Origin: Deltaproteobacteria bacterium
Lineage (GTDB): Bacteria > Desulfobacterota > Desulfomonilia > Desulfomonilales > Desulfomonilaceae
Direction: 5' to 3'
NCBI GenBank assembly: GCA_016875095.1
Contig: VGSG01000039.1
Coordinates: 1 to 36,997 of the forward strand
Length of the DNA stretch: 36,997 nt
In this document: in pieces, positions 2,057 through 11,617 of the stretch
How the letters are laid out: each line of letters begins with the position of its first letter
Position numbering within the stretch: the stretch's first letter is position 1
Notes under the pieces: generated by a model
Database searches by the model: none
Seen by the model: only the letters and a program-made list of their open reading frames with translations
What the model was told of the DNA's origin: nothing
Made by a program: the position numbers and the translations under genes

Positions 2057-2265
2057 CGTTGGATTTTGTCGGTCTCATGAAAAGCCGCGCGAATATACCG
2101 TCACACGTTCCCGGCCCCGGCAGTCTTATTATATGAGGAGCGAGTCTGGGTCGCTTGCCCAACGGAGGCTCGCGCCCTTGCCTTTGCGATCAAGCGTCAG
2201 CTGTCAAGTCTGACCACACATTTAGGTGAAACGTCGGTTCGTGCAGCGGCACGTGCCAAATTCTT

Positions 2266-2279
2266 GCGCTCTAGAGCGC
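2266..2279. promoter_or_regulatory. 14-bp perfect palindrome upstream of the molybdopterin oxidoreductase gene
   Basis: GCGCTCTAGAGCGC is its own reverse complement. It ends 17 bases before the start codon and 4 bases before the Shine-Dalgarno sequence. It could be a repressor operator or a short hairpin in the leader. The rest of the 240-base gap (2057-2296) shows no gene and no convincing promoter. Confidence 0.4.
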
Positions 2280-2296
2280 GACGAAAGAGGTCTCTC

Positions 2297-4537
2297 ATGG
2301 CATCCTGGCAAAAGTCTGCATGCATTTGCTGCGCGCAAAATTGCGGGCTCGAACTGGAGATCGAAGGGAATCGCATCGTCAAGGTAAGGGCCGACAAAGA
2401 CAACCCGCGCAGCCAAGGATACGTGTGCCGAAAAGGACTCAAGATAGCGCATTATCAACACAACTCATCCCGCCTCATCCACCCGCTGAAACGGACTTCA
2501 AACGGTTTCCAGCGGATTTCATGGGATGACGGGCTCGATGAGATCGCGACCACCCTGCGGCGAATCGTGGATACCGGAGGCCCCCGATCCGTGGCCTATA
2601 TGGGCGGCGGAGGCCAGGGGTGTCATTTTGAGGCCGCGTTCGGCGTGCGCCTCCTGCGCGGCTTGGGGTCCAGGTACCATTACAGCGCGCTGGCCCAGGA
2701 GCTTACCGGCATGTTCTGGGCCCACGGCCGCATGTTCGGGCGGCAATACCTTGCTCCCATACCGGACGAACATCAAACCGACATGCTCATCTCGGTCGGC
2801 TGGAACGGGTGGATGAGCCACCAAATGCCCCAGGCAAGGCGGCATCTGAAACGGATTTCCGATGACCCGGAAAAGCTGCTGGTGGTCATTGACCCTCGAA
2901 AGTCCGAAACCGCGCAGAAGGCCGATATTCACCTTGCCCTTCGCCCGGGAACCGACGCGCTCCTCTTCAAGGCCATGATCTCGATCATCCTTAACGAAAG
3001 GTGGCAGGATGCGGATTACATCTCCCGCCACGTGAGCGGACTGGCGCAAATCTCGCCCTGGTTCAAGGATTTTGACGCAAAAGCCGCGATCAAGGTGTGC
3101 GAACTTGATTACGCGCAAGTTCGAGAACTGTGTCGCCTCTGTGGCACGCGCAAATGGTCTTTGCACACGGACCTGGGCATACTCATGAATCGCCACAGCA
3201 CGGTCGTCTCGTACTTGGCCGCGGTCCTGATGACCATCTGCGGCCGTGTCGGGGTTCAGGGCGGCAATCTCTTCCCCGGCTATCTGATGCCCCTCGGCGC
3301 CCATTCGGATGAGCGTGACAAGCGGACATGGCGAACGGCGGAGACCGATTTCTTTGAAATCATGGGGACTTTTCCTCCCAATGTCATGCCTGAGGAGATT
3401 CTCTCAGGGCGCGAGGACCGCCTGAGGGCCGTGATCGTGAGCGGCGCCAATCCGCTGAGGTCGTATGCGGATACCAGCGCGTACGAGGAGGCTTTCCGGA
3501 AACTCGATCTCTCCGTAACCATTGATGTGGTGATGAGCGAGACCGCGGCCTTGTCCCAATACGTGCTCCCTGCCCGCTCCGCGTACGAGAAATGGGACGG
3601 GACCTTTTTCGCCTGGACCCACCCTGAGGTCTTCTTTCAGATGCGCAGGCCGCTACTGGCGCCTGAGGGGGAGCCTCGGGAAGAAAGTGAAATCTTCACA
3701 GGACTGGCCGAGCGGCTTGGGCTGATTCCTCCTTATCCCGAATCTCTGACCCAGGCAGCGCTGGGCGACAGGCTGCAATTCGGTTTGCAGCTTATGCAAT
3801 ACGCTGCGTCGGAACCTCGGGCCGCGGCGACGCTGCCGTTCATTCTCGCACGGACCCTTGCAACCGCGCTGGGGTCGCCCAACTTGGCTGCGCTCTGGGG
3901 ACTGCTACAGACCGCGCCGAAATCATTTCGGGAAATGGCGGTGAATGCCGGATTCAACCCTGGGTTGACCATTGGCGAAGAGATCTTTCAGGCCATTCTC
4001 GATCATCCCGAGGGGCTCTGGATCGGCAAGAGCGATCCGGAAAAGAACCTGGAATCGGTCCGCACAGAGGACGGCAAAATCAACGTTTTTGTCCCTGAGC
4101 TGGCTGACTGGATTGACGAGATCGACGCCCCGCGAGAAAAACAGGCGCTCAGCCTTTCCGCCGAGTATCCGTTGGTTCTCACGGCCGGTCGCCACTTCGA
4201 TCATAACGCGAACACCATTATGCGCGACCCCGCGTGGAACGACCACAAAGAAGCCTGCACTCTGCTCATCCATCCATCGGACGCGGCCGCGGCGGGAATC
4301 AAAGACGGACAGAGGGTGAGTGTCACCACGGAAGCGGGCCGAGTGGAAATCCCCACAGAAGTGACCGACACGTGCAGCGCCGGACACGTGGTGATTCCGC
4401 ACGGCTTCGGCCTGGAGTATGAAGGCAAGACGCACGGGGCCAACGTGAACCGACTCGCCAAGAACACGAACAGGGACAGACTGGCGGCCACTCCTCTGCA
4501 TCGTTTCATCCCATGCCGGGTCGAGCCGTGCGGATAG
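2297..4537 (+). CDS. molybdopterin-dependent oxidoreductase (DMSO reductase superfamily)
   Basis: Large (746 aa) Mo/W-bis-MGD enzyme of unknown substrate. The start is placed at the internal ATG at 2297 because AAAGAGG (2284-2290) sits six bases before it; an upstream ATG at 2264 has no such site. The N-terminus has the [4Fe-4S] motif CICCAQNC with the fourth Cys in GYVCRKG. Then come the two molybdopterin-binding domains and a C-terminal dinucleotide-binding domain (from YPLVLTAGRHFDHNANTIMR to RFIPCRVEPCG). There is no twin-arginine signal, so it should be cytoplasmic. The stretch where formate or nitrate enzymes carry the Mo-ligating Cys/Sec reads YHYSALAQELTG, without Cys or Ser at the expected spot. 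No electron-transfer or membrane-anchor subunit is adjacent. Family assignment is firm; the reaction is not identifiable. Confidence 0.9.
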   Translation: MASWQKSACICCAQNCGLELEIEGNRIVKVRADKDNPRSQGYVCRKGLKIAHYQHNSSRLIHPLKRTSNGFQRISWDDGLDEIATTLRRIVDTGGPRSVAYMGGGGQGCHFEAAFGVRLLRGLGSRYHYSALAQELTGMFWAHGRMFGRQYLAPIPDEHQTDMLISVGWNGWMSHQMPQARRHLKRISDDPEKLLVVIDPRKSETAQKADIHLALRPGTDALLFKAMISIILNERWQDADYISRHVSGLAQISPWFKDFDAKAAIKVCELDYAQVRELCRLCGTRKWSLHTDLGILMNRHSTVVSYLAAVLMTICGRVGVQGGNLFPGYLMPLGAHSDERDKRTWRTAETDFFEIMGTFPPNVMPEEILSGREDRLRAVIVSGANPLRSYADTSAYEEAFRKLDLSVTIDVVMSETAALSQYVLPARSAYEKWDGTFFAWTHPEVFFQMRRPLLAPEGEPREESEIFTGLAERLGLIPPYPESLTQAALGDRLQFGLQLMQYAASEPRAAATLPFILARTLATALGSPNLAALWGLLQTAPKSFREMAVNAGFNPGLTIGEEIFQAILDHPEGLWIGKSDPEKNLESVRTEDGKINVFVPELADWIDEIDAPREKQALSLSAEYPLVLTAGRHFDHNANTIMRDPAWNDHKEACTLLIHPSDAAAAGIKDGQRVSVTTEAGRVEIPTEVTDTCSAGHVVIPHGFGLEYEGKTHGANVNRLAKNTNRDRLAATPLHRFIPCRVEPCG

Positions 4538-4556
4538 CCGGCGGAGACCGCCGGCT
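4536..4556 (+). terminator. strong hairpin at the end of the molybdopterin oxidoreductase gene
   Basis: A perfect 9-bp GC-rich stem (AGCCGGCGG / CCGCCGGCT) with a 3-base loop, overlapping the TAG stop codon. No T-run follows, so it is either a Rho-assisted transcript end or an mRNA-stabilising 3' structure rather than a classic intrinsic terminator. Confidence 0.45.
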
Positions 4557-4635
4557 GAACAATGGCAACATACCGAATCCCCTCACAAGCTACCTGTTCC
4601 AGATGAACTTGACCGGCCAGGAGATGGCGTGGGTC

Positions 4636-4664
4636 TTGAAGCTCAACGGAATAGTGTTTATGGT
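4636..4664 (+). promoter_or_regulatory. possible sigma-70-type promoter for the radical SAM gene
   Basis: TTGAAG (4636-4641), a 17-base spacer and TATGGT (4659-4664), ending 58 bases before the start codon. GTTTA/TAAAC (4656-4668) forms a small inverted repeat over the -10 box. Each box matches consensus in four of six positions, so this is a moderate candidate only. Confidence 0.35.
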
Positions 4665-4722
4665 AAACGACAATGTTCGCTATCGTGGGCTTGAAATGCT
4701 GAATGCAGAGGGTTGAGAGAGC

Positions 4723-5934
4723 ATGAGTCAGAGCTGGGTAGGAATATCCACGATACTGAAGACAGCGGCAAAAGTCTTTGAAAAGCCGGTGTACGCCAAG
4801 AACGTCTCCATGCTGCAGGTCGACAGGTTCCTGCGCAACATCTCTTTGACGCCTCCCGAGGGGAAAGCCAACCGCATCAGGCAGTGCAGCGTCAGAATAA
4901 CCGACCTGTGCAACTTGCGATGCCATACCTGCGGCCAATGGGGAGACAGCGGCTTCCTGCGGAGTTGCTCGATCGCGGACCTTAGAAAGGACGAGGTGTC
5001 ACCCGACCGTTACATCGAACTCCTCAGAGATCTCAAGGCGCACGGCCACACACCCACGGTGTACCTCTGGGGGGGCGAACCCATGCTGTACAAGGGTTCC
5101 GTGGAGATCATAGAGGAGGCCGCGTCAATGGGCATGCCTCCGAGCATTGCCACGAACGCCACCGGCCTTGCGCAGCACGCGGAAAGACTGGTCGCCGCGC
5201 CCATGTTCGTGATCCAGATCTCGGTTGACGGCGCGGACTCCGCCACTCACAACGCGTGCCGCCCCGGGGCAAATCCCGCGGTGGATAATTTCGCGACCAT
5301 AAATCAGGCCATCGCAAGCATAAGAGAGATCCGCGCGGATCGAGGCCAACGACTCCCCCTGATCGCCTCGCTTACCACCATCAACAACCTGAATTACGAT
5401 AAGCTCGTGGATGTTTACGAGTCTTTTAGAGACAAGGTGGACGTGTGCGTCTTTTACCTTGCCTGGTGGATCGATCAAGAATCCGCGGAAAATCACGCCC
5501 GTGACTTTGAGGAGCGCTTCGGCTTTAGGCCGGAGAAACACTTCGGTTGGATCGGGAGCTGGCGTCCCCCGGATTACGGAATCCTGTCGAGCCAATTGAA
5601 ACGACTCGAGGCAAAGGCTGCGAGCCTGTCCGGGCCGGGTTTGATCATCATGCCCCCCGTGTCGGAGCCTGACCAATTGGAAGCGTACTATACGGATCAC
5701 GCCCAACGATTCGGCTTTGAGAAGTGCAATCATATCCTTACCGCGGTTGAAATAAATTCCAACGGCGATATGAGCCCGTGCAGGGATTATCACGATTTCG
5801 TGGTGGGAAATGTGAAAGAGAAGACCATCACGGAGCTGTGGAATTCCGAGCCGTACCGCAAGTTCAGGCGGAGCCTCGCGGAAAAGGGCCTCATGCCCGC
5901 ATGTACACGCTGCTGCGGTCTCATGGGCTATTAG
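4723..5934 (+). CDS. radical SAM/SPASM domain protein
   Basis: Predicted radical S-adenosylmethionine enzyme of 403 residues. The cluster motif CxxxCxxC is at Cys63, Cys67 and Cys70 (DLCNLRCHTCGQWG), followed by the glycine-rich LWGGEPMLYKG strand typical of SAM binding. The C-terminal 70 residues form a SPASM-type region: CNH, then INSNGDMSPCRDYH with the G-x4-C signature, then VGNVKEKTITELWNSEPYRKFR and CTRCCG close to the end. Enzymes of this type modify peptides or small molecules or act in cell-envelope and cofactor chemistry. No recognisable partner enzyme is adjacent, but a 67-codon open frame ends six bases upstream (see findings). The start has a weak GAGAG four bases before the ATG. 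Substrate unknown. Confidence 0.88.
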   Translation: MSQSWVGISTILKTAAKVFEKPVYAKNVSMLQVDRFLRNISLTPPEGKANRIRQCSVRITDLCNLRCHTCGQWGDSGFLRSCSIADLRKDEVSPDRYIELLRDLKAHGHTPTVYLWGGEPMLYKGSVEIIEEAASMGMPPSIATNATGLAQHAERLVAAPMFVIQISVDGADSATHNACRPGANPAVDNFATINQAIASIREIRADRGQRLPLIASLTTINNLNYDKLVDVYESFRDKVDVCVFYLAWWIDQESAENHARDFEERFGFRPEKHFGWIGSWRPPDYGILSSQLKRLEAKAASLSGPGLIIMPPVSEPDQLEAYYTDHAQRFGFEKCNHILTAVEINSNGDMSPCRDYHDFVVGNVKEKTITELWNSEPYRKFRRSLAEKGLMPACTRCCGLMGY

Positions 5935-6519: not shown

Positions 6520-6544
6520 AACAAAAATGGAAAGGAGTGATGAG

Positions 6545-7555
6545 ATGAAGAAGGTCGTGGTTTTGATAGTGTTCGCGCTGGTATTTGCGACCCCCTATCT
6601 TTGTTTCTCGGCCGGCAAGGGCAACAAGGGGAGGAACCAGGGTCACGCGGTGACGAGCCACTCGACGCCGGCGGCGCAGAAGGGCCATCAGTGGACCCAT
6701 GGTGGCGACCGATCCGGACACAACGGTCATTGGTTGAGAAACGTTGACCGAGGTGGGGACCGAGGCAATAGGTTTGGCCACAGCGGCCGCAACGAGCCCA
6801 AGAACTGGTTCGGTCACTCGGACCGCCCCGGACACAAGGGAAACTCGTTCGGGTTTGGTGAGCGTTTCGCGCACAGGAGCAGCTCGTTCGGGCTTGGCGA
6901 TCGTTTCGGCCACAGGAGCCAGCTCTTTGGGCTCGGTGGTCTCTTCGAACATAGGCGCCACGGGTTCGGCCCGGGCGACCGACGCTTGGGAGACTCTCTG
7001 GAACGCAGAGGCGAGGCCTTGGAGCGTCGTGGGGAGAGACTGGAGCGCAGAGGTGAATGGTTGGAGCGCCTGGGCCATCGGATGGAAGCTCGCGGTGAGT
7101 ACTTGCAGCGTCTAGGCCACAGACTCGAAATGAGCGGCTTCGGTCATCTGGGAGAGCGGTTGATCCGTAGAGGTGAGATCTTGGAACGTATGGGTCATCG
7201 GCTGGAGGCAAAGGGTGAACGAATGGACCGCTTGGGCGAGAGGCTGCAGCGCAAGGGTGATTGGTTGCAGACTGTGGGCGACCGAATCCAAACCGGAGGC
7301 GATCGGTTCCGGTTCGCGGGCGAGCGGATGGATCAGAGAGGGGACCGATCTTCCGGGTTTAGTGACAAACGAGAGAACAGGGACTTTGCGCGTTCCCTAG
7401 ACCGGCCCGGCGGTAGCAATGAGCAGACCTCGACAGTCGGCAATCGGCAGGCCACCAACAGAGATCGTACACGTTTGGCGGGTCAACCAGGAAATAGGGG
7501 CCAGGAACTCGACCGGCTGGCCACATGGGTGCGGCAGGACAACGCCACGCAGTAG
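6545..7555 (+). CDS. secreted glycine-heptad repeat protein of unknown function
   Basis: No known family was recognised. The start is ATG 6545, because AAAGGAG (6531-6537) lies seven bases upstream; the ATG at 6527 overlaps the Shine-Dalgarno region. The product (336 aa) begins with a clear signal peptide (MKKVVVLIVFALVFATPYLCFSA), so it is exported. Residues 24-100 are rich in Gly, His, Arg and Asn. Residues 102-144 repeat with a 13-residue period (Phe102, 115, 128, 141; pattern FGxGxxFxHR). Residues 149-266 are a near-perfect heptad array with Gly at every seventh position (149-198 and 203-266, one phase slip), a Leu/Met/Ile/Phe three residues later, and Glu/Arg elsewhere, as in ERRGERL or ERLGHRM. 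The tail (270-336) is polar and low in complexity. A helical, charged periplasmic or extracellular rod is plausible, but function is open. Confidence 0.75.
   Translation: MKKVVVLIVFALVFATPYLCFSAGKGNKGRNQGHAVTSHSTPAAQKGHQWTHGGDRSGHNGHWLRNVDRGGDRGNRFGHSGRNEPKNWFGHSDRPGHKGNSFGFGERFAHRSSSFGLGDRFGHRSQLFGLGGLFEHRRHGFGPGDRRLGDSLERRGEALERRGERLERRGEWLERLGHRMEARGEYLQRLGHRLEMSGFGHLGERLIRRGEILERMGHRLEAKGERMDRLGERLQRKGDWLQTVGDRIQTGGDRFRFAGERMDQRGDRSSGFSDKRENRDFARSLDRPGGSNEQTSTVGNRQATNRDRTRLAGQPGNRGQELDRLATWVRQDNATQ
6845..6976 (+). repeat. 39-bp tandem repeat (13-residue period) inside the secreted protein gene
   Basis: Three and a third diverged copies encoding SFGFGERFAHRSS, SFGLGDRFGHRSQ, LFGLGGLFEHRRH and GFGPGDRR. 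Spacing between the conserved Phe residues is exactly 13 each time. Confidence 0.7.
6989..7342 (+). repeat. 21-bp tandem repeat array (heptads) inside the secreted protein gene
   Basis: About seventeen diverged 21-bp units, each encoding Gly-(Glu/Asp/His)-x-(Leu/Met)-(Glu/Gln)-(Arg/Ala)-x. The only break in register is between Gly198 and Gly203. DNA units differ at many sites while the protein pattern is kept, which suggests an old duplication under protein-level selection. Confidence 0.75.
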
Positions 7556-7912: not shown

Positions 7913-9409
7913 TCATCCTTCGCATGGAGCGGGTTCCTTGTAATTGGTCCCCAGCACGCTCTGAAGTTCGGCGCATGCGGCATTGGCCTCGCCCAGAGCG
8001 CGAATGCGCTGAATTTTTTGCATGAGGAGGTTGGCTTCGGCCTCTTCGAATTGCAGTTGGCTCAGGTCATCTCCGGCGACTCTTATCTGGGCCATCTTGA
8101 GGACCTTTTGAGAACCGGCCAGCGCAGCTTCCCTGGTTTGGCACTCCTCCAAAGAGTCATTATAGGTTAACGCCGCGACTCGCACTTGGGACGCGATACC
8201 AAGGGCAACTGCGCCCAATTCCTTATATGTTTTTGTTGCGGCGGACCTGGCCGCTCGAGAGTCGTTTCGATTGATCAGCCAATCGAGTAGATCAAAATGG
8301 ACCAAGACACCGATATCTTTCCAATCCTTATTGTACAGAAACTTGTCCTTGTCTCTGGTATATCTCCAGAAGCCTTCAACTTTGGGAAGATATCTGACGA
8401 TGGTTCGTTTGATGTCATTGACGGATGTGAGGTGGTCGAGTCCGGCTTGGAACGCTTCGGGTCTGTGTTTGACGGCTATCAGCTCCAGATCGCACAATGG
8501 GGCGCCGAAGCAGGGAGAGGACATCTTCCCTTCCACGCAAAAACCTCCGTCCACACAATACTCGGGCGAAAGCCCCATCGCTGATGCAAGGATGTTCCTC
8601 TGCCTCTCCGTTTCATTGCGGACCTTCCCCAAGACGCGGCGGGCTTCCACAGCCCTTTCCTCAGCTCGCTCGTAATCTTCAACTCTTATTATGCTCTTGT
8701 TCTGAAGTCTCTGCATTGAGGCGGCAATCTGAGCCCGCATGCCCGCAAGTCGCTTGGCGTAGGACAATGATTGTTGGAGACTCAAGAGCCTGAAATAGGC
8801 CCCATCCACTGCGCCGATGAGCTTTTGGGCCACTCGCACTTTTTGATAATGAGCCTTGAGTCGATCATTGGAAGCGCTCTTCGAAACGTAATATGCCAAG
8901 GCCGCGTCCACCGGGCTCCACCTCGTCTCAAAAACATAACGCCAGGTGGTCCTTTCATGACCCGTGGAATAACTGGTGACGCCTGTGCCGTCCGCAGACG
9001 GCTGCAAGCCCTCCTGCCCCAGAACATCGCTGTACGAATAGAGAGGGTTGTCTCGTTGGCTCAGGTCACCGGTAAAGCTCAGATGCGGCAGCATCCTAGC
9101 TCTGCTACTCCATCTTACAGCTTCCCGCGTGAGTTCGTCCCAGCGGGCCACCTGAACTTCCAGGTTATTGGTAAGCGCCATCTGGCGACAATCCTCAAGA
9201 GTCAATGATCTTTTCCCTAAAGCCGCGGTCACCGGCCGCGATCGAGATTCGGCCAACATCCTGGAAGCGTTCACTGGGGCGAAATCCACGTGATCCACGG
9301 AGCGAAAGGGAGAAAGCAAAGCAGATTGGCAAGACGCAATATACGGCAGGGACAACATGAGAATGGCTTGGGCCAGCTTTCTACATGGAAACGGCTGGGG
9401 CCGATTCAC
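7913..9409 (-). CDS. TolC-family outer-membrane efflux lipoprotein
   Basis: Outer-membrane factor expected to form the exit duct of a tripartite exporter. The 498 residues start with an N-terminal signal ending in the lipobox-like YIASC, so it is probably lipid-anchored like NodT/OprM members. Two copies of the outer-membrane-efflux helical repeat follow: LEDCRQMALTNNLEVQVARWDE early, and a late pair around LGAVALGIASQVRVAALTYNDSLEECQTREAALAGSQKVLKMAQIRV and LSQLQFEEAEANLLMQKIQRIRALGEANAACAELQSVLG. The start codon is GTG, sharing four bases (GTGA) with the stop of the upstream adaptor gene; GGAG lies eight bases before it. This coupling means the two proteins are made together. Confidence 0.88.
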   Translation of the reverse strand: MNRPQPFPCRKLAQAILMLSLPYIASCQSALLSPFRSVDHVDFAPVNASRMLAESRSRPVTAALGKRSLTLEDCRQMALTNNLEVQVARWDELTREAVRWSSRARMLPHLSFTGDLSQRDNPLYSYSDVLGQEGLQPSADGTGVTSYSTGHERTTWRYVFETRWSPVDAALAYYVSKSASNDRLKAHYQKVRVAQKLIGAVDGAYFRLLSLQQSLSYAKRLAGMRAQIAASMQRLQNKSIIRVEDYERAEERAVEARRVLGKVRNETERQRNILASAMGLSPEYCVDGGFCVEGKMSSPCFGAPLCDLELIAVKHRPEAFQAGLDHLTSVNDIKRTIVRYLPKVEGFWRYTRDKDKFLYNKDWKDIGVLVHFDLLDWLINRNDSRAARSAATKTYKELGAVALGIASQVRVAALTYNDSLEECQTREAALAGSQKVLKMAQIRVAGDDLSQLQFEEAEANLLMQKIQRIRALGEANAACAELQSVLGTNYKEPAPCEG

Positions 9410-10290
9410 TTCGCCAACTCCAAATAACCCGTCATTCCTACTTCCAACTGGCCGTCCGGGTTGTCAATGAGCACGTAAACCTTCTTGGTCCCCGACTTGG
9501 GATCGAAGAGTTTTCCCACCCTTTCAACGACCCCGGCGAACCGCCTTTCCTTGCCTGGCGATGTGACAAACGCCACGCGACGGTTCCTCGTGAAATCGGG
9601 AAGAGCGCTCTCCGAAACGCCGGCGATCGCGTAAACTTTGGACGTGTCCACAAGCACAAAAAGCTTTTGAAAATAATCAACGGCTTCAAAGGGTTCCTTG
9701 AGGCGAACGGCGATGTGCCCGCTGAAAGGAGCCTTGACCTGGCATGATTCCACGTCCATACGGGCAAGCGTCAGGCCGGTCTTCGCCTCTTCCAGCCTAT
9801 ATTCGGCCAGTTCCTCTTCCGCTTTTCCCTTGAGCGCTTCCGCTACAGTGGTTGCCTTTTCCGCCAGGAGCTGTTCCTTGAGCTGAGTTTCCTGCTTTGC
9901 CCTCTTTAGGTCGGCTTCAGCGGCTTTGAGCGCGTTCTTGGCTCTTTGGAGCGCGAGAACGTGCCTTTCGCTTGAGATCACTACCACCACCCGGTCCTTT
10001 TCTACAAAATCACCCTCTTTGGGGTGAAAGGATTCGATGACGCCCCGAGCTTCAGCGCTGATCTCCGCGGAACGATGCGGCGCTATCACCGCCGCGAGCT
10101 CGTCGGCCTGATCTTCAGCCGCGGCGGAAGGGCTCTGGTGGTTCCTGTCCGTGCTTTTGGGTTGGGCCTGCCTGACTGGTGAAGTTGAGGTTTCGGACTG
10201 GGGCGCCCCGGAGGTGAGTGAGGGGAGGGAGAAGAGGAGGCCCAGGGCGACCAGGGCGGCAAAGTTATAATATAATAGAATTCTTATCAT
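9406..10290 (-). CDS. periplasmic adaptor (membrane fusion) protein of an efflux system
   Basis: HlyD/AcrA-like adaptor, 294 residues, that would bridge an inner-membrane transporter and the outer-membrane factor encoded next. It has an N-terminal hydrophobic signal/anchor (residues 4-30), a Pro/Ser-rich linker, a lipoyl-like half motif (AEISAEARGVIESFHPKEGDFVEKDRVVVVI), a helical hairpin rich in Ala/Glu/Lys (about 107-175), the returning lipoyl half (VKAPFSGHIAVRLKEPFEAVDYFQKLFVLVD) and a beta-barrel end (GVVERVGKLFDPKSGTKKVYVLIDN... VGMTGYLEL). The ribosome binding site is weak (AAAGAA). A good promoter lies 45 bases upstream. No RND, ABC or MFS pump gene is adjacent, which is unusual. Confidence 0.85.
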   Translation of the reverse strand: MIRILLYYNFAALVALGLLFSLPSLTSGAPQSETSTSPVRQAQPKSTDRNHQSPSAAAEDQADELAAVIAPHRSAEISAEARGVIESFHPKEGDFVEKDRVVVVISSERHVLALQRAKNALKAAEADLKRAKQETQLKEQLLAEKATTVAEALKGKAEEELAEYRLEEAKTGLTLARMDVESCQVKAPFSGHIAVRLKEPFEAVDYFQKLFVLVDTSKVYAIAGVSESALPDFTRNRRVAFVTSPGKERRFAGVVERVGKLFDPKSGTKKVYVLIDNPDGQLEVGMTGYLELAK

Positions 10291-10479: not shown

Positions 10480-11040
10480 TCAACCTGACCTACAAGCTCG
10501 CCCGCGGGCCTGGGTTTTCACGTGCGGATCGGCTTGTGAAGTATTCCGGAAATGACGGATGAAGAATCTAGCCGCCAAGCCGTTGATGAAGCCGGTTCCA
10601 GTGGCCGTAACCAGCAGGAGCGGCAGGAGGAGAAGGATAGCTTCATTGCGAACAATAATCAGGTATGCTGCGGCCAGTTGGCCGAGATTGTGGAATACCG
10701 ACCCCATCATGCTGATCCCGACCTCTGAGAAGACTCGTCCGGAGATCCTGTGGGCAAAGCCCATAGCCGCTATCGCGCACACGCCTCCTGAAAGAGAGAG
10801 AATGAAAGCGGGGGCGCCGAAGGAGCCGCCGAGGAGCGACCCGAGGAAAATTCGCCCCAGGGTAAGCACGAGCGCGTCTTTGAATCCAAAGAGATACAGG
10901 GTGGCAAGACCGATGATGTTGGCGAAGCCGAACCGAAACCAGGCCACGGTGATAGGCAGGAACGCCTCCGCGGTGTGAATGACCGTGGCGAGCGCGAGCA
11001 GCAGCGCGAGTCTGGCCAAGTGGCTCACCCGATCGGTCAT
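10480..11040 (-). CDS. Gx transporter family membrane protein (heptaprenyl diphosphate synthase component I-like)
   Basis: Small integral membrane protein, 186 residues from the ATG at 11040 (MTDRVSHLARLALLLALATVIHTAE). That start overlaps the upstream stop codon by four bases (ATGA), indicating translational coupling, and gives the usual family length; a longer frame upstream is only read-through into the neighbouring gene. Five to six hydrophobic helices are visible, including AWFRFGFANIIGLATLYLFGF, FLGSLLGGSFGAPAFILSLSGG and LGQLAAAYLII. The phrase GSFGAPAFILSLSGG is typical of the family, whose substrate is not established (proteins of this group resemble ECF-type S components). It is paired with a NusG-II protein, an arrangement also common in Clostridia, often near flavin-dependent redox genes. 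Confidence 0.8.
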   Translation of the reverse strand: MTDRVSHLARLALLLALATVIHTAEAFLPITVAWFRFGFANIIGLATLYLFGFKDALVLTLGRIFLGSLLGGSFGAPAFILSLSGGVCAIAAMGFAHRISGRVFSEVGISMMGSVFHNLGQLAAAYLIIVRNEAILLLLPLLLVTATGTGFINGLAARFFIRHFRNTSQADPHVKTQARGRACRSG

Positions 11041-11420
11041 TGGCTCACCGCGTCCAGGCCGTCGGGCCGTTCTTTCCCCATGTGCACGATAACCTCGTTC
11101 GGGACGCACACCACGAGTCCTCCGTTTCGGTCGACCGATCCCATGCGCAGGCAATATTTTTGAGGGCAAGGCGATCGTGTGACGCGTGCGCGATTCTCTT
11201 TGATTTCCACTTGGGTGATTCCAAGAGGGCCGGGGACCTGGACGACGCGGTCCACCTCCAGGTCATATCTGCCGAAAGCCCTCTCCCCGCGGTGAATTTC
11301 CACGAGCATTCCTGTGGAGCCGACCCAGCCCGGAAGCACGAAAAATAGGATCACGGAAAAGACGAGCAGCGAGACACCAAGGGCCCAGTCGCCAGGTGTG
11401 GCATAATTATTTTTCTTCAT
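11037..11420 (-). CDS. NusG domain II-containing protein
   Basis: Membrane-anchored beta-barrel protein of about 127 residues. I chose the ATG at 11420 (MKKNNYATPGDWALG) because it puts the single transmembrane helix (ALGVSLLVFSVILFFVLPGWV) near the N-terminus, as in the family. The open frame continues upstream to 11597 but would overlap the nrdR promoter region. No clear Shine-Dalgarno is visible, so the start is uncertain. The NusG-II core is recognisable from VEIHRGERAFGRYDLEVDR, the Cys pair in SPCPQKYCLRMG and the ending GGLVVCVPNEVIVHMG. Despite the name there is no NGN or KOW transcription-factor part; the fold is used extracytoplasmically. It overlaps the Gx transporter by four bases. 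Confidence 0.75.
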   Translation of the reverse strand: MKKNNYATPGDWALGVSLLVFSVILFFVLPGWVGSTGMLVEIHRGERAFGRYDLEVDRVVQVPGPLGITQVEIKENRARVTRSPCPQKYCLRMGSVDRNGGLVVCVPNEVIVHMGKERPDGLDAVSQ

Positions 11421-11617
11421 TTTGCTGATTACACTATACATCGCGCTGGATCGCTGGTCCGTGGATATGGAGACTACCGCTTTTTCCAGAAAGCCTCCAG
11501 TCTGAGGCTGGATCACGGAAAGAAAATTCTTAATTCTGCTTGCATCATCCTGAGATTCGTTATAAATAGCGGTTGCGATTATCCGAGATCTGCCCATTCC
11601 CGCCGAGGTGGTGCATA

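Follow-up and report, generated by a model that had tools for sequence, protein, structure and literature searches.

A putative exported protein with glycine heptads in a predicted helical hairpin from a Desulfomonilaceae genome

The window, the whole stretch of 36,997 nucleotides that was analysed, carries an open reading frame on the forward strand (6545-7555) that translates into 336 amino acids. We refer to it as the hairpin gene, after the structure predicted below. Its ribosome binding site, AAAGGAG (6531-6537, forward strand), lies 7 nt 5' of the ATG at 6545, where an earlier note on this DNA had described a strong site. Upstream lies the gene of a radical SAM/SPASM protein (4723-5934, forward strand), which is conserved in genomes of the host family that have no hairpin gene. 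Downstream, convergent on the reverse strand, family model matches identify a TolC-family outer membrane protein (7913-9409) and an RND/HlyD-type periplasmic adaptor (9406-10290) whose gene overlaps that of TolC. The radical SAM gene is directly followed by the Hpre_diP_synt_I and NusG_II genes in 12 of 15 family genomes, and in the window these two lie at 11037-11597 and 10480-11169, so that the hairpin gene and the TolC/adaptor pair make up a stretch of about 4.4 kb specific to the lineage. No sigma factor gene was found near the hairpin gene at this locus, and searches for Rfam RNAs and tRNAs across the window found none. The gene is probably monocistronic, with an exported structural protein as its product.

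The neighbours show an organization of their own. In the window (2264-5934) and in family genomes, genes for an acyl-CoA dehydrogenase, a molybdopterin oxidoreductase and the radical SAM/SPASM protein stand together; the closest NCBIfam models of the radical SAM protein, sub-threshold twitch and tungsten-enzyme maturases, suggest that it may be the maturase of the neighbouring Mo/W enzyme. In relatives within Desulfomonilaceae, and at two further places in the same genome (L239, L241, L242, L236, L240), the adaptor-TolC pair has behind it a gene for an M50-peptidase/HlyD fusion of about 704 aa, one for a second HlyD protein of about 500 aa, or both, and giant DUF4347/cadherin/Big-domain proteins are frequently encoded next to these; the sets are possibly an export and processing system. 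The copy in the window is without the M50-peptidase/HlyD and second HlyD partners.

We turn to the question of whether the reading frame is under selection. The 18 glycines that recur every seven residues are encoded by 8 GGC, 6 GGT, 2 GGA and 2 GGG codons, using all four third bases. Their pairwise identity at the third base is 45/153 = 0.29, near saturation, while bases 1 and 2 are invariant, and Tandem Repeats Finder found no 21-bp array in the heptad region; the glycines are thus held by selection at the protein level and not by recent copying. The codon usage of the frame resembles that of the neighbouring genes modestly overall (0.050 against a base-composition expectation of -0.017, a value reached by 8 of 1000 random draws), strongly in the N-terminus and not at all in the heptads (0.003) and the C-terminus (-0.005). 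Two antisense reading frames, the longer of which has a negative codon score, are best explained as by-products. With the ribosome binding site and the putative export signal, the constraint on the glycine codons supports a real, selected, probably exported coiled-coil protein.

At the N-terminus, residues 1 to about 24 (6545-6616, forward strand; sequence MKKVVVLIVFALVFATPYLCFSAG) form a putative signal peptide or membrane anchor. By eye, KK is followed by an 18-residue hydrophobic run, and the model places a helix at residues 2-22; the putative cleavage site is atypical, obeying the A-x-A rule poorly. The Gly/His/Arg/Phe-rich low-complexity region that follows (residues 25-143, 6617-6973) has an AlphaFold pLDDT of mostly 40-46 and is predicted to be disordered; the 121 residues from 23 to 143 contain 22% Gly and 13 His. 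Inside it, a 13-residue repeat with the core FGxGxRFxHR occupies residues 89-141 (6809-6967). The exact 13-residue period noticed before at Phe102, 115, 128 and 141 holds, with Phe89 as a fifth member. When the mature sequence was shuffled 20,000 times, no more than four Phe fell at this period, and 2,000 shuffles gave no run of five at any period between 3 and 25. The repeat is also visible in the DNA as a 39-bp tandem repeat (6844-6933, 84% matches in Tandem Repeats Finder), from which we take this region to be the younger one. The divergence between units that had been described at the DNA level therefore applies to the glycine heptads and not to the 13-residue repeat.

The central part of the protein is dominated by glycine. 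An exact recount agrees with the 18 glycines at every seventh position reported for residues 149-266: eight lie at 149-198 and ten at 203-266, with one 5-residue step between. The hydrophobic residue said to follow three positions later is L, M, I or F in 16 of 16 complete heptads, and in 20,000 shuffled versions of the mature protein the longest run of period-7 glycines was 9, short of the ten seen here. From the single sequence, AlphaFold predicts helices at residues 144-196 and 200-268 with a core pLDDT of 93-98 and a break at 197-199, although on repetitive Glu/Arg/Leu-rich sequence such predictions tend to give confident helices. Modeling the fragment 142-271 alone leaves the turn unchanged (mean pLDDT 89.7, pTM 0.69). 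The two arms (6974-7132, with Gly 149-191 every seven, and 7142-7348, with Gly 203-266 every seven) are joined by a turn (7133-7141) that falls within L194-x3-G198-x4-G203-x2-L206, which is the 5-residue phase slip itself, and the helix break coincides with the slip in both models. Beyond the arms, a polar C-terminal tail (residues 269-336, 7349-7552) is modeled with low confidence except for a short terminal helix.

When the arms are paired by i+j=397, 14 consecutive Gly-aliphatic layers result, from G149-I248 to L194-G203. What had been read as a phase slip is better taken as the turn of an antiparallel hairpin; this is most likely from the models, and the slip would then be no defect. Two features speak against the hairpin: its 17-18 glycines disfavour an isolated helix, and most e-e' pairs bring acid against acid (E174-E221, E181-E214, E167-D228), which is unfavourable unless they are screened, protonated or metal-bound. 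On balance the predicted architecture of export signal, flexible linker and Gly-core antiparallel hairpin appears quite likely.

The next question is whether such a protein exists elsewhere. No model of Pfam, NCBIfam or PHROGs matches above its curated cut-off. The best Pfam match, DUF6944 (PF22116; residues 160-249, E 2.5e-5), scores 24.1 bits against a cut-off of 32, and membership was rejected on this ground. The comparison set comprises 18 genomes of the host family and 42 of the class. Apart from the host, none of the class (41 genomes) yielded a homologue, and none came from peptide searches of viral contigs and genome contigs, from 60 relatives, or from plasmids and phages (tblastn). 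In family genomes, searches around 15 radical-SAM genes and 5 TolC genes with the low-complexity filter off gave none either, nor did a scan for Gly-heptads at the TolC paralogue loci of the same genome. By sequence, the PDB gave nothing significant, a lengthened ROP (9cfs, E 0.033) being only suggestive. AlphaFold and Foldseek had been proposed as checks. The former predicts the helices with confidence, and the Foldseek/VIA matches are generic hairpins: many are found (PspA/Vipp1, Dld1 5LOS, chemoreceptors) at Z 9-12, values common for unrelated helical hairpin shapes, with no clear relative among them. Membership of the PspA family was rejected, the likeness being one of fold only with no Pfam match. 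The tip motif of HlyD/RND adaptor hairpins, known from work on AcrA, is R-x3-L-x6-S; here L190 and S197 are present and position 186 is Tyr, and this candidate was also rejected.

Scans of DNA for the Gly-heptad pattern demonstrate that Gly-heptads alone are neither rare nor diagnostic. Across 297 genomes of the phylum the matches besides the window are mostly heptanucleotide repeats, plus one GKRIEEQ coil. In genome contigs, among the matches listed (80 examined), most are tandem repeats, either simple or of 21 bp, GEPICYF of Nostoc being an example, and in viral contigs AEGDKLR and QHGETL heptads of phages appear. As side observations, the phage AEGDKLR/W heptads of four viral contigs (L080, L084, L073, L077) are followed by a conserved C-terminal stretch beginning GNITLEW; three other viral contigs (L065:12910, L072, L081) carry TLAQHGE/TLSQHGE Gly-heptads over more than 200 residues; and Nostoc and related cyanobacteria (e.g., L128, L143, L163) have many 21-bp tandem repeats readable as GERICYF/GEPICYF that are probably non-coding.

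A phylum-wide search leads to small exported proteins of 105-147 aa in six genera of another Desulfobacterota family, f58 (G254, G428, G438, G439, G431, G351). All six have a signal-like N-terminus, G, A or S every seven residues, and an aliphatic residue or Met three positions later in most heptads. Their two arms are joined by L-x3-G-x4-[A/G]-x2-[L/V/A], and in an anchored comparison of all seven proteins this 5-residue phase step is that of L194-G198-G203-L206. Two of the six have Pro inside the turn (GHPKA, GRPIA), which argues for a turn rather than a continuous helix. No Pfam or NCBIfam model matches the two of the six that were tested. They share with the window protein a signal-like N-terminus, the small-residue heptads, the turn spacing and an Arg/Lys/Glu-rich surface. 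They differ in being shorter, in having no Gly/His/Phe N-terminal region, and in having Ala or Ser near the turn in place of some of the glycines that the window protein has.

A profile built from these six proteins alone finds the window frame at E 1.4e-19, third best among 395 genomes; in other genomes of the host class no match is better than 6e-5. Fully shuffled versions of the window protein score at most 3 bits. Versions shuffled within heptad columns average 84 bits, against 73 for the real protein, and a phage heptad protein with no relation to it reaches 89, so that what the profile recognises is the heptad design. Common descent of the window protein and the f58 proteins is no more than a possibility. 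The earlier note had recognised no family, which stands for Pfam, NCBIfam and PHROGs, yet the design recurs in exported proteins elsewhere. Its suggestion to look for homologues with the same Gly spacing and variable copy number is answered in part: the same spacing, with variable copy number, is seen in exported hairpin proteins of other Desulfobacterota, which are possible homologues.

In two further families the f58 profile also reaches one exported protein each, of 139-142 aa (L261:1342-1758 in G376 and L262:922-1347 in G295), built from 11-residue repeats that start with Gly (GDRIDHRLDRK type) and form two arms with a central HG-x4-A break. Like the window protein, they combine a putative signal peptide, Gly-starting repeats and a break between two arms; unlike it, they have a period of 11 instead of 7, and the gene of each directly adjoins one for an ECF sigma factor (NF006550, above cut-off), a neighbour that is absent from the window. 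In one case, given as L261, a DUF3106 gene is nearby. Only this ECF sigma neighbourhood hints at a function, and indirectly so, because the window gene has no adjacent sigma factor. We tentatively consider that these proteins may belong to a recurring unnamed class across Desulfobacterota, of exported single antiparallel hairpins with an all-small, Gly-dominated core position, in heptad and hendecad forms and partly under ECF control. The window protein would be an elaborated member with an FG/His-rich disordered region.

Combining this information, a model of the protein can be proposed. The central domain (residues 144-268) would be a coiled-coil hairpin of two antiparallel helices, its arms overlapping over about 8 nm, with Gly at every a position, an aliphatic residue at every d position, and each core layer a Gly-aliphatic pair. 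Such layers would allow the helices to pack very closely, as a glycine Alacoil. The disordered stretch with its 13-residue repeat would join the hairpin to the N-terminal export signal, and the charged Arg/Glu surface would give solubility and weak binding. As for function, the protein might serve as a rod or spacer, in the periplasm or on the cell surface, and protect the envelope when the cell is stressed, a possible role that we put forward with reserve. Taken as a whole, an exported structural protein with a glycine-Alacoil hairpin, a turn at the slip, a disordered linker and a rod role is the best explanation, to which we give a probability of roughly 0.6.

Other explanations were weighed against this one. 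Heptad periodicity with one discontinuity, and profile matches of a coiled-coil-like kind, would also fit a continuous long coil (a parallel or multimeric rod, or a Gly-zipper bundle) in which the slip is a phase defect. This is unlikely given that the predicted helices break exactly at the slip, that six other proteins retain the 5-residue step, with Pro there in two, and that G198-F-G200 would be a poor helix interior. Another candidate is a protein of hydrophilin/LEA-like or apolipoprotein-like kind, which would be disordered when in dilute solution and turn into an amphipathic helix on drying or on membranes, though a rather doubtful one. The mature protein is highly hydrophilic (Gly 17.5%, GRAVY -1.37) and lies within the numeric limits for hydrophilins as quoted in PMC4190154 (Gly > 6%, GRAVY < -1), which are insufficient as a definition (PMC4190154). 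The hendecad cousins match Apolipoprotein below the curated cut-off (1.5e-6, 8.5e-5). Against it, a folded state is predicted confidently, and a protein of this kind would not need an exact Gly register or Gly-aliphatic layering.

The His-rich N-terminus could instead capture metal, with the hairpin as a spacer, in an exported protein that works with the neighbouring TolC/adaptor. The 13 His residues, the acid-acid e-e' pairs that could also bind cations, and the location of the TolC/adaptor genes on the same lineage-specific segment are in line with this, as is Dld1 (5LOS), a secreted fungal helical hairpin that tops the structural list and is linked to iron (PMC8657640). The hairpin and TolC genes are convergent and form no operon, though, metal motifs give no match, the TolC gene has no adjacent inner-membrane pump, and the Z near 11 of Dld1 is typical of any helical hairpin; we find this reading improbable. 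Still further from acceptance is the protein as a substrate of the upstream radical SAM/SPASM enzyme (a Gly-rich RiPP of GrrA type). The adjacent gene and a Gly-rich, exported product invite the idea, yet 15 family genomes without the hairpin protein carry the enzyme at 70-76% conservation, the NCBIfam models closest to it (below cut-off) are those of twitch and tungsten-enzyme maturases, its gene adjoins a molybdopterin oxidoreductase and is separated from the hairpin gene by 590 nt, and no RiPP precursor model matches the hairpin protein, that of GrrA (TIGR04260) giving nothing at E <= 1. The link was rejected, and we find it scarcely credible. A spurious or recently arisen reading frame is very improbable too. 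It would account for the lack of a close homologue in the collections searched and for the weak codon bias of heptads and C-terminus, but not for 336 codons with a ribosome binding site and export signal, 18 of 18 glycines retained at saturated third bases, two independent periodicities with designed-looking layer complementarity, and counterparts in other genomes.

Returning to the glycine hairpin, we compare it with known folds. Dld1/PIIN_05872 (5LOS) and PspA/Vipp1 are likewise helical hairpins (Z 10-11; for Dld1, Z 11.4 with an rmsd of 1.4 over 89), but they show no sequence relation (6-13% identity) and the Z values are within the range of unrelated hairpins. A closer parallel is the Alacoil that Gernert et al. 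reportedly described in 1995, which in its ferritin-type form has a small residue at a, as in ROP and the Lac repressor tetramerisation domain. Its helix axes are said to run very close, at 7.5-8.5 Å. The definition is summarised in PMC3037368. In the window protein the small residue at every seventh position is Gly at all a positions of 149-198 and 203-266, and the antiparallel helices are those of the predicted hairpin (pTM 0.69), with which the i+j=397 layering agrees. Shared with the Alacoil would be a small residue every seven in both helices of an antiparallel pair, here a predicted one, and a large aliphatic one at the other core position. The differences are that all 17-18 positions hold Gly and not Ala, that the predicted pair is a single-chain hairpin of 53 + 69 residues, and that it is probably exported. 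The predicted core would then be an a-d' layering, the ferritin-type Alacoil arrangement with Gly for Ala. The earlier coiled-coil reading keeps its Gly at a and Leu/Met at d, and its "unusual core" becomes an Alacoil-like small-residue heptad.

An open-access subset of the literature gave no matching description of Gly-every-seven antiparallel coils or hendecad periplasmic hairpins. As far as the searched libraries go, small-residue heptads in an antiparallel pair are a known principle, and what is new is that a predicted exported hairpin has Gly at all of these positions and that the design recurs in unannotated proteins. The turn-anchored heptad/hendecad signature offers a way to collect exported proteins that the searched family libraries miss. 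Gly is the usual helix breaker, which makes a natural domain of 125 residues whose core a positions are all Gly a sharp test of small-residue helix pairing. The hairpin, if it proves real, would be the glycine extreme of the Alacoil principle.
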